Positions 7,842 through 34,551 of a stretch of 64,000 bases of DNA are shown one piece after another. A program made the position numbers and the translations under genes. Where the stretch lies: the NCBI RefSeq assembly GCF_007993045.1, contig NZ_VOOR01000032.1, forward strand, positions 1-64,000, in the 5' to 3' direction. Numbering within the stretch: the first letter of the stretch is position 1; each line of letters opens with the position of its first letter. Source of the DNA: Phaeodactylibacter luteus. Lineage in GTDB: Bacteria; Bacteroidota; Bacteroidia; Chitinophagales; Saprospiraceae. The notes under the pieces were generated by a model. It was not told the origin of the DNA. It saw only the letters and a program-made list of their open reading frames with translations, and searched no databases.

Positions 7842-8372
7842 AATTGATTTTAAATAAACGCAATATAAAACATATAAAACTAAAAATCAAGCCCCCCATC
7901 GGATGTGCCTAGAGCAAAGGTGCCAATTGCCTGAACGGCTTCGCCGACCATAAGTCGCAGAGGCTTTTCCCAAAACAGACCCCTACGATGGACAGACCGT
8001 ACGTCATCGCTTAAACATTGTCAAAATACACCTTTGATTCCACCTGCACAAAAAATCCCCTGACAAAATTTGGCAACAGCCATAGACAACCAACCGCCTT
8101 GCCCATCCGAGCCCGGCATTCGCGCCAGCCACATAAAGCACTAAGTGCACCTATCTCCCACTTGCCGTTAGAAGGGGCCTACCCCTGCCTGAGGGCAGGG
8201 GTCGCTATGCTGCGGGGCTCGCTGACCGCTCGGCCCTACCGGGCTTACACCCCTCCGCAGCGCTAGTCCGGCGCCATCCTGAAGCTAAGCCTGGGCGTGG
8301 CAACTCCCAGCGCACATGGCAAAATGCCGCCCCCCGCTTTTGGAAAACCTAAGTAGAAAACAAGAGGCAGTG
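7842..8372. other. Intergenic region upstream of the recombinase gene
   Basis: No convincing gene is present. The AT-rich stretch next to 7842 (to about 7890) probably holds the recombinase promoter. A partial match to the palindromic element at 25331-25517 occurs at about 8060-8082 (core ACAAAATTTGGCAA), and copy 1 of the dispersed repeat occupies about 8174-8273. The remainder is GC-rich and featureless. Confidence 0.6.
8174..8273 (+). repeat. Dispersed chromosomal repeat, copy 1
   Basis: The shared blocks are CCCCTGCCTGAGGGCAGGGG, CGCTATGCTGCGGGGCTCGC, CCGCTCGGCCCTACCGGGCT and CCCCTCCGCAGCGCTAG. Other copies lie at 10740-10845 (-), 14199-14340 (+), 25235-25553 (+, interrupted) and 34140-34243 (-). 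Inner palindromes such as CCTGCC/GGCAGG suggest a structured REP-like element. Confidence 0.85.
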
Positions 8373-9377
8373 TCAATCAGGAGCAGAGCCCGGAAAACCT
8401 GTGGGCGGTACAGCCGGAGCCTGCAGCCGGTAGCCTACGCCCCTGATATTGACAATCTTCACCTCAGGGTCGGCAGACAGTTTTTTGCGGAGGCGAGAGA
8501 TGAAAACGTCCAGGGTGCGGCCTACATAACCGCCTTCGTCCCCCCACACGGCCTGCAGCAGCACATCCCGTTCCAGAGTCTGATTGGGAGAGGCGTGCAA
8601 CACTTGCAGTAGCGCGGCTTCTTTGCCGGTCAGCTCCGTGCGCTGCCCGTTGAAGGCTAGCAGCAGCTGCTCAGGGTCAAAATGGAAATTGCCCAGATTG
8701 GGCTCGGCAGCAGCAGTTCCTGCAGTAAGGCTAGACCTTGCTGAGGTTTCGCTTTTGGAGCGGACCCCGCCCGAAGTGCGAAATCCAAACAAGCCCTTAA
8801 TGGGCCGCCCGCGCCAGTACAGCCACCCCATCAGCGCTAGGGCAAGGGGCAGCAGGGCTTTGGCGAAGTTGCCGGCTGTGCTCGCACCCTTCACCGCTGC
8901 AGTGGAGTAGCCCGTTTCCGGAAAGGTAAATAGCAGGGCGTAGCAATCTTCTGGCAACAGGCGGTCTTGGCAGGGGATGATATCTGAAGCTTCCGATTGC
9001 CCAACCTTGAAACCGTAGACGGCTTCCTGCTCCCCGCACACGGCTACCTCCACCAAGTAAGGCCCTGTGAGCCCGGCCTTTTGTGCAGATGCCTCCACCA
9101 CTGCCGCAAGCCTCCCGGGCTCGAAAGCAAAGGGGGCCGCAAAGGATAAACGGTAGCGCTGTGGCTCCTCTTGCACCACGGGCATAACGCGGGAGGTGCT
9201 GTCCCCCGTGCTCAGCAGCAGCTCATGGCCCACCATGCGCAATGCGATCGATGTTTGCACGGGCCCCGCAGCTTGGGCGTACAGCGCAAAGCTGTGGGCT
9301 GAAAGGGCAATCAGGCTGGCGATGAAGGCGGCCCGGGCAGAAAACCGGCTCAGGGCAAAAGGTTGTAAATAGCACAC
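8373..9377 (-). CDS. ToxR-like membrane winged-helix transcriptional regulator
   Basis: This protein of 334 residues starts with GTG at 9377. A signal-type hydrophobic segment (about 14-36) leads into an extracytoplasmic domain (about 40-168) with two Cys pairs. One transmembrane helix follows (about 171-188), then a cytoplasmic linker and a C-terminal OmpR/PhoB-type winged helix (about 238-318) with LTGKEAALLQVL, RTLDVFISRLRKKL and IVNIRGVGYRL. The topology is like ToxR turned around, with the DNA-binding domain at the C terminus. It would sense an envelope signal and act directly on DNA. The linker (residues 194-211) is encoded by a palindromic repeat element at about 8745-8799. The gene is divergent from the propeller lipoprotein at 9478, which may be its target or its sensory partner. 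The fold is certain; signal and targets are unknown. Confidence 0.85.
   Translation of the reverse strand: MCYLQPFALSRFSARAAFIASLIALSAHSFALYAQAAGPVQTSIALRMVGHELLLSTGDSTSRVMPVVQEEPQRYRLSFAAPFAFEPGRLAAVVEASAQKAGLTGPYLVEVAVCGEQEAVYGFKVGQSEASDIIPCQDRLLPEDCYALLFTFPETGYSTAAVKGASTAGNFAKALLPLALALMGWLYWRGRPIKGLFGFRTSGGVRSKSETSARSSLTAGTAAAEPNLGNFHFDPEQLLLAFNGQRTELTGKEAALLQVLHASPNQTLERDVLLQAVWGDEGGYVGRTLDVFISRLRKKLSADPEVKIVNIRGVGYRLQAPAVPPTGFPGSAPD
8745..8799. repeat. Palindromic element lying in frame within a coding region
   Basis: The core CGCTTTTGGAGCGGAC and CCCGAAGTGCGAAATCC, followed by AAACAAGCCCTTA, matches the two ends of the element at 25331-25517. The outer arms GG(A)TTTCGC and GCGAAATCC pair with each other. 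On the minus strand it encodes KGLFGFRTSGGVRSKSET in the linker of the ToxR-like regulator, between the membrane helix and the winged helix. Confidence 0.7.
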
Positions 9378-10687: not shown

Positions 10688-10739
10688 CTGGGGTGGCCCT
10701 AATGCTTTGCACGCTGAATGCCGCCTGGCTTGAAGGCTG

Positions 10740-10845
10740 GCATCGGCCTAGCGATGTGTAGGGGTGTGCAAGCCCGATAGGGCCGAGCGGGCAGCGAGCC
10801 CCGGAACGTAGCGGCTCCTGCCCTCAGGCAGGGGCAGGCCCCAAA
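10740..10845 (-). repeat. Dispersed chromosomal repeat, copy 2
   Basis: This is the reverse complement of the family described at 8174. It includes GCATCGGCCTAGCG, GATAGGGCCGAGCGGG, CAGCGAGCCCCGGAACGTAG and CCTCAGGCAGGGGCAGGCCC. It lies between the terminator and the cytochrome operon. Confidence 0.8.
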
Positions 10846-14198: not shown

Positions 14199-14340
14199 CA
14201 GGGGCCTGCCCCTGCCGCAAGGAGGGGGCCAGCAGGCAGGTGCCGCTATGCTGCGGGGCTCGCTGTCCGCTCGGCCCCTCGCCCTACAGGCGTCGGGTCT
14301 GGCCTTCGGCCACCCCTGCGCAGCGCTAGGCCAATGCCAG
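14199..14340 (+). repeat. Dispersed chromosomal repeat, copy 3
   Basis: This is a longer form of the family. The blocks GGGGCCTGCCCCTGCC, GGCAGGTGCCGCTATGCTGC, GGGGCTCGCTGTCCGCTCGG and CGCAGCGCTAGGCCAATGCC are present. The middle (about 14280-14315) is diverged and longer than in the other copies. Confidence 0.8.
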
Positions 14341-14409
14341 CCTATTGCCCAGAAAGCTTAAGACCTGCCTTGCTCGTGAGCTTGTACAGAAAAAGTTAGT
14401 GTGTAAGCT

Positions 14410-25141: not shown

Positions 25142-25234
25142 AGTGCTTTGATAATTAGACAAAAAGGTACGAAAAAATATTGCACTATAGTAACCTAACT
25201 TTCGCCGGGCGCAAACCAAGCTGTCCTTTTTGGG

Positions 25235-25553
25235 CTTGCCCCTGCCGCAAGGATGGGGGGCCTGCCCCTGCCGGCGGGCAGGTGCCGCTATGCTACGGGG
25301 CTCGCTATCCGCTCGGCCCTATCGGGCTTAGAACTGTTCGGATTTTGCTTTTGGAGCGGACGCAGCCAAATTTTGCCCTGATCAAGGCGTGATATATTCA
25401 AGAATGGGACAAAGGGCCCCATTCTTGAATCCAATAGCCTAGCTACATGACCGAAAAACAACGAAGTGCAGGACAAAATTTGGCAAGAGCAGCCCGAAGT
25501 GTAAAATCCGAACAGCTCTTAAACCCCTTCGCAGCGCTAGGCCAATCCCAGGC
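25235..25553 (+). repeat. Dispersed chromosomal repeat, copy 4, interrupted
   Basis: The left part (25235-25330) runs from TGGGCTTGCCCCTGCCGC to GCCCTATCGGGCTTA. The right part (25522-25553) resumes with AACCCCTTCGCAGCGCTAGG. In copy 1 these two parts are contiguous, so 187 bp plus a duplicated CTTA were inserted. Confidence 0.8.
25331..25517. mobile_element. MITE-like palindromic element with CTTA target duplication
   Basis: The element has three nested inverted repeats: CTGTTCGGATTTT (25334-25346) with AAAATCCGAACAG (25503-25515), CCAAATTTTGCCCTG (25366-25380) with CAGGACAAAATTTGG (25469-25483), and a perfect inner hairpin TTCAAGAATGGG (25397-25408) with CCCATTCTTGAA (25418-25429). CTTA is present on both sides (25327-25330 and 25518-25521). 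It encodes no transposase, so it would need an enzyme supplied from elsewhere. A shorter relative lies inside the gene at 8745-8799. Confidence 0.75.
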
Positions 25554-25838
25554 TAAAGCCCGGAAAGATTGAATGCCTGCGATATTTTGGTTTACGCCCC
25601 TTTCGCCTTTTGATTCGGCCCGCAAAAAAGCCGCCTTCCTGGGTTACCTGAGCCGATTTCTGTACACCAATAGCAGTAGAGCCAGCCCTACTCAGCTTCA
25701 AGCATTGGCAAAGGCTCCACTATTCTTTCATGCAACCTTTTATGCAATGCTCTACAAAATAAATGTTGTGCTTTTCAGTTTGGGCGGAGGAGAAGAGGGC
25801 TTTGGGTCCGATGATATGCTCGATGGGTAAAACCAAAC

Positions 25839-34060: not shown

Positions 34061-34139
34061 GCCAAGGCTTGTTTTTCCATTGCGGGCCATCGGTTTTCAC
34101 AGGGCACAAAGCTGGCTTAGCGGGCGTAGGCCAAGCTTT

Positions 34140-34243
34140 GCATCGGCCTAGCGCTGCGGAGGGGTGGGAAGCCCGTTAGGGCCGAGCGGTGAGCGAGCCC
34201 CGCAGCATAGCGGCACCTGCCATCCGGCAGGGGCAGGCCCCAT
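34140..34243 (-). repeat. Dispersed chromosomal repeat, copy 5
   Basis: GCATCGGCCTAGCGCTGCGG, GTTAGGGCCGAGCGGTGAGC, GAGCCCCGCAGCATAGCGGC and CCGGCAGGGGCAGGCC mark it as a reverse-orientation copy. It is the last copy before the island. None is found from 34.3 to 64 kb. Confidence 0.82.
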
Positions 34244-34551
34244 CACATTGTGCAGGGGCAGGCACCAAGTTTACTTTGCGATGGGCTATATGGCCGCTCG
34301 TACAACGAAAAAAGCAGCCAAGACCTAACTTGACTGCTTTTATTCGAATCTTTTTCACTTAACGGCTGCTGAAGCTTTTTATCTTCGTAACTCGTTGGGT
34401 AGCAGTTATTCCGTATGATTTTTAGTAGACCTACTAGGTCCACATTTCGATACAATTATACGGGGTTTTCCGGTATTTCGCTGAAAAAATGGCAGATTTT
34501 AGCCGATTTTTTGCAAAAACGCTTAGTATGGCGGAAAAGACTGGAACACTG

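Follow-up and report, generated by a model that had tools for sequence, protein, structure and literature searches.

In the genome of Phaeodactylibacter luteus a membrane-bound regulator gene carries, in frame, a short palindromic segment that is very probably a decayed non-autonomous MITE with IS5-type ends (IS1031 group), moved in trans, through which the gene would have gained 66 nt in a tolerant linker. The gene lies in the window, by which we mean the whole stretch of 64,000 nt analysed here (contig NZ_VOOR01000032.1, positions 1 to 64,000). The original prediction had placed a palindromic element at 8745–8799; this was the right place, while the extent has been adjusted to an element at 8734–8796 plus presumed CTA and TTA duplications.

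8373–9377, − strand: host gene of the insertion, a membrane-bound winged-helix regulator of 334 aa whose open frame is unbroken (ORF list, Pfam, homologues)
8731–8733, + strand: presumed left target duplication, CTA, one base off TTA (alignment; TNA duplications in relatives)
8734–8796, + strand: short palindromic element (probable MITE), 63 nt, in frame on the − strand (motif matches, fold, genome search, covariance model)
8797–8799, + strand: presumed right target duplication, TTA (alignment)

The regulator consists of an N-terminal domain, a single membrane helix (helix and orientation judged by eye) and, at its C terminus, a winged helix that corresponds to a Pfam Trans_reg_C match at residues 244–318 (73 bits). 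In ToxR itself the winged helix is found at the N end, whereas here it occupies the C end. The net insertion, 8734–8799, comprises 66 nt or 22 codons encoding the peptide KGLFGFRTSGGVRSKSETSARS, and its omission keeps the frame and shortens the protein from 334 to 312 aa. Its location between the membrane helix and the winged helix agrees with that originally proposed.

Aligned with the short-form consensus of its repeat family, the window copy is 80% identical across 61 of the 63 nt and scores E 2.3e-9 in the genome search, bearing out the proposal that a palindromic element sits in frame within the regulator. It had also been taken for a short relative of a long element, then delimited as 25331–25517 and here as 25331–25518, and both core motifs of the two do match: one is common to them at 15 of 15 bases, a length at which about 2 chance matches with up to three mismatches are expected in the 64-kb window, and the other at 20 of 23 bases, with 0.00 expected. 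The + strand folds with a z score of −4.4, none of 200 shuffles being equally good, and the − (coding) strand with one of −2.5 (5 of 200 shuffles). The covariance model matches the window copy at E 1.8e-14, a value inflated because this copy is one of the 11 rows from which the model was built. An ordinary variable linker that merely resembles the repeat would fit the varying linker length of distant homologues; however the genome search, the longer motif match and the + strand fold all speak against such a coincidence, which we regard as extremely improbable.

A protein search of 39 genomes, including that of P. luteus, gave a match in every one, mostly to the winged helix only; of the five other genomes from the genus, three have a full-length homologue. 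In an alignment of 12 homologues the distance from membrane helix to winged helix is 32–35 residues in the eight closest (37–50% identity) and 32 in one that is matched in the winged helix only. The corresponding linker of the window protein measures 56 residues, and 34 once 8734–8799 is omitted; the segment is thus absent from the eight closest homologues aligned, as the original prediction would have it, and its removal restores the linker to their length. Three distant homologues (29–31% identity) have linkers of 42, 48 and 39 residues, so that linker length is variable anyway, which tells to some degree against reading the difference as an insertion. So too does the search for a near-identical strain with an empty site, which found none: the 12 pattern matches in named genomes included no confirmed relative, near-own records being possibly excluded from them.

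Searching the 6.0-Mb genome with the short-form consensus yields 72 match rows at E <= 10, a number that counts both arms and both strands; many of the rows represent one or the other arm of a long form, or a reverse-strand match. A family model of 11 rows, several of them long copies with the interior omitted, gives 52 match rows at E <= 10 in the same genome and, at E <= 1e-4, has matches in 19 of the 149 family genomes searched, own genome counted. The core motifs are 43 nt apart in the near-consensus short forms (C2:46578, C236:27236 and C284:7445) and 42 nt apart in the window copy, while the outer core motifs of long copies are separated by 135–139 or 167–172 nt. Net lengths run from 49 to 108 nt in the 42 elements listed, with long nested forms of up to about 200 nt, and no transposase gene lies inside the elements, which in both respects are like MITEs. 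A core 21-mer occurs in Phaeodactylibacter xiamenensis, an uncultured Phaeodactylibacter, Saprospiraceae bins and two Verrucomicrobia-type records; the latter two lack the family ends and were set aside. An Rfam gathering search of the window returned 0 matches, and two microRNA matches within 25180–25600 fell far under the cut-offs and were taken as chance. Seven pairs of the arms have changed on both sides, where shuffling gives 3.5 and a count of 7 is attained in 9 of 500 shuffles. This covariation was not counted as support for a structure-conserved RNA function, because the same would be expected of terminal repeats each fitted to a single transposase.

Most copies are nested within a second, GC-rich repeat unit of REP-like character, as the following features of the window illustrate.

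25331–25518, + strand: long relative of the window copy with the same ends and TTA on both sides, whose loop holds another palindromic stretch bordered by GCAGCC repeats
25207–25575, + strand: REP-like unit containing the long element (sequence comparison)
8174–8269, + strand: REP-like unit without the element, with the empty site GGGCTTACACCCC (sequence comparison)

Five copies of this unit are present in the 64 kb (8174–8269, 10724–10842, 14202–14359, 25207–25575 and 34134–34268), and 33 of the 37 palindrome copies of the genome have it on both sides by a loose test, which also accepts the right flank of the window copy, where by eye there is no unit. The nesting goes further: the palindrome lies within the REP-like unit, a second palindromic stretch lies inside the palindrome between the GCAGCC repeats, and in some long copies an interchangeable third stretch (a 32-nt palindrome, one of a GACATTCATCGTCGGG type or one of a CCTGCCCGCC type) lies inside the second. 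The single Y1_Tnp (RAYT) gene found in the genome (C236:103147–103491) is flanked on both sides by copies of the outer unit in opposite orientation, a REP/RAYT arrangement. RAYT was considered as the mover of the palindrome and rejected, the Y1_Tnp gene being flanked by the outer unit, for which it is retained.

The ends of the palindrome point to a different enzyme. Relatives of the window copy end in GAGC.TGTT and are bordered by 3-bp TNA duplications. Among 28 elements of other genomes the flanking triplets are identical in 18, where shuffling leads one to expect 9.74 (p 0.00025), and reverse complements in only 3, where 9.86 are expected; such a preponderance of identical over reverse-complementary triplets is expected of a target duplication but not of an extended palindrome. 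TNA stands at the left of 24 and at the right of 27 of these 28 elements. In the P. luteus genome, on the other hand, identical triplets were counted in 5 of 12 elements against 3.4 expected (p 0.18), which is not significant, and the triplets of the window copy, placed by hand, differ by one base (CTA left, TTA right); the count scores this copy as a non-match because the model sets its left end one base off. Both observations weigh against the transposon reading.

Transposase loci carrying such ends were found in related genomes. Among 19 PF13340 loci, drawn from 10 of 61 genomes, three have matching inverted ends with TNA flanks and so share terminal inverted repeats with the element: L144, with GAGCATGTC (TTA, GAGCATGTCTAAAA, TTA); L145, with GATCATGTT (TAA, GATCATGTTTAAA, TAA); and L147, with GAACGTGTT/GAGCGTGTT (TTA, GAACGTGTTTGG and GAGCGTGTTTGG, TTA). 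Similar ends, GAGGCTGTT, occur at L150, where the left one is without TNA and the right one coincides with the contig end, and none of the remaining 15 loci has such ends; these loci count against the assignment, as does the own genome, in which the PF13340 profile finds no match. A search with the L147 transposase as query nevertheless located there a decayed IS5-type transposase with several stops (C57:59194–59639), flanked by the inverted motifs GAGCTTGTT and AACAAGCTC about 960 bp apart. Its ends carry TGA and TAG, without a duplication, again a point on the other side, and it is the only transposase with these ends found in the genome, no intact one having been detected. An IS1031-group element is described, in the part of the source drawn on here, as making a 3-bp TNA duplication, with GAACCTGTCTAGTATCT as an example end (PMC12016507). 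The likeness to IS5-family MITEs of this group thus extends to ends close to a published GAACCTGTCTAG (as far as the excerpted source goes), the TNA duplications, the short length, the many copies and the transposase loci of related genomes. The present family differs from them in that only a decayed transposase was found in its own genome and that most copies are nested in a REP-like unit.

On these grounds a putative transposase acting in trans would have placed a 63-nt element at a TNA triplet within the codons of the juxtamembrane linker, and duplication of the triplet would have brought the net gain to 66 nt. The gene would have stayed open and gained 22 residues, since 66 is divisible by three and five of the six frames of the copy contain no stop. 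Five of six frames are likewise stop-free in two further copies, and four in a third. Selection would have tolerated the extra residues at a point where linker length varies among distant homologues, and later changes in the left arm would have cost it some of its base pairs with the right one. We take the in-frame case above all for a survivor, a 66-nt copy that would have persisted in a tolerant linker while gene-breaking insertions would have disappeared.

The original prediction had likened the insertion to a process known from Rickettsia, in which a palindrome enters a gene in frame and adds a peptide to its product (as described in the portion cited of PMC10969869); the same portion puts the RPEs of R. 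conorii at 44, nearly half of them in ORFs (PMC10969869). Applied here, an element shaped for in-frame gene insertion would seed peptides in many proteins of the clade. The net 66 nt and the open frames of the window copy are in keeping with this, as is the mean of 3.60 open frames per element in 42 elements, compared with 2.93 in shuffles. The net lengths of these 42 elements are, however, spread over the three remainders of division by three as 17, 11 and 14 (18, 11 and 13 with the window copy taken as 66 rather than 65), with no clear excess of multiples of three. Recurrence also fails to appear. Among 37 distinct both-arm copies of the own genome, an open frame of more than 300 codons runs across the element only in the window copy (338 codons); the next longest frames (264, 150 and 143 codons) belong to spacers adjoining larger ORFs, and ten more divergent copies lie in spacers (by eye). 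The family has matches at 46 distinct places in 18 other genomes; 28 of these loci were inspected, and by eye none is clearly within a conserved gene, nor is any of a set of ten loci, seven of which are the same places. Frames across nineteen copies, some of them among those just named, were rejected as in-frame cases, being chance spacer frames or lying upstream of a start as judged by eye from neighbouring ORFs. At position 547 of L190, from Phaeodactylibacter xiamenensis, an element extends over the final codons of a 197-codon frame, and this is probably a gene truncated by the element.

It had been proposed to look for the peptide in unrelated proteins of the clade. When 99 genomes were searched with the peptide as read in the regulator, 13 match rows resulted: one for the regulator gene, two for copies of the element in spacers, and ten weak ones (E 0.4–3.1). 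The eight of these ten whose DNA was read show no such palindrome, and the search yielded no further protein. A lack of other intragenic copies had been named beforehand as evidence against the idea, and as far as tested, over the 37 own copies and the 28 loci elsewhere, none was found. What stands of the comparison is the palindrome itself, in frame and missing from the eight closest homologues; its recurrence does not, and a dedicated coding-insertion process of the Rickettsia kind seems to us quite unlikely. The insertion looks like a rare accident, not a habit.

The 22 residues might alternatively have been domesticated, that is, have usefully changed the regulator, through the distance between winged helix and membrane or through an mRNA hairpin, and been kept by selection. 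In favour of this, the frame is intact despite about 20% divergence from the consensus and the inner stem still pairs; but the outer left arm has drifted, and substitutions in the inner stem such as C-G for T-A are present in other copies too, so that they need not have arisen in place. We consider domestication improbable, and the segment presumably is a transposon remnant without function.

Cases of MITEs and REPs lying in frame within genes have been published before, and the window case is a clear example of a process known from other bacteria. It resembles the RPEs in being an in-frame insertion in a gene whose closest aligned homologues are without the segment, and differs from them in its IS5-type ends and in its single in-frame copy, as far as the copies and the one peptide frame examined show. 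Cardinium belongs to the Bacteroidota. Its MITE lies, in the passages cited, for the most part between genes and far more rarely within them (PMC9769881). Intragenic GTAG and CGTC REPs are small palindromes in coding regions of several species, with inserts often of 20–30 residues, according to the section cited of PMC3733652. Those are, on the same partial account, REP units partly tied to RAYT genes, unlike the present element with its terminal repeats and target duplication. The QMITE elements of Coxiella burnetii, as far as the cited excerpt describes them, extend ORFs by insertion or sit in frame within ORFs (PMC5896051); they represent another element family from another phylum, and are likened to ours by description, not by sequence. 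The window provides a clean case in which a mini-transposon adds a peptide to a regulator with the frame intact, in which the pre-insertion length can be read from relatives and for which a likely transposase type has been identified. It suggests that in-frame palindrome capture in this phylum is explicable by ordinary transposition and selection, with no special coding-insertion process.

A broader proposal is that Saprospiraceae-type genomes hold a large IS1031-type palindrome superfamily, stop-free in many frames and occasionally entering coding linkers. The lineage would then possess, in elements mobilised by a known transposase type, an equivalent of the palindromes that code for protein in Rickettsia; this we hold to be a long shot. 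Near position 1501 of two loci (L099 and L100) the stop codon of the upstream ORF is formed by the flanking triplet or the element junction, and some copies may thus have landed at stop codons.
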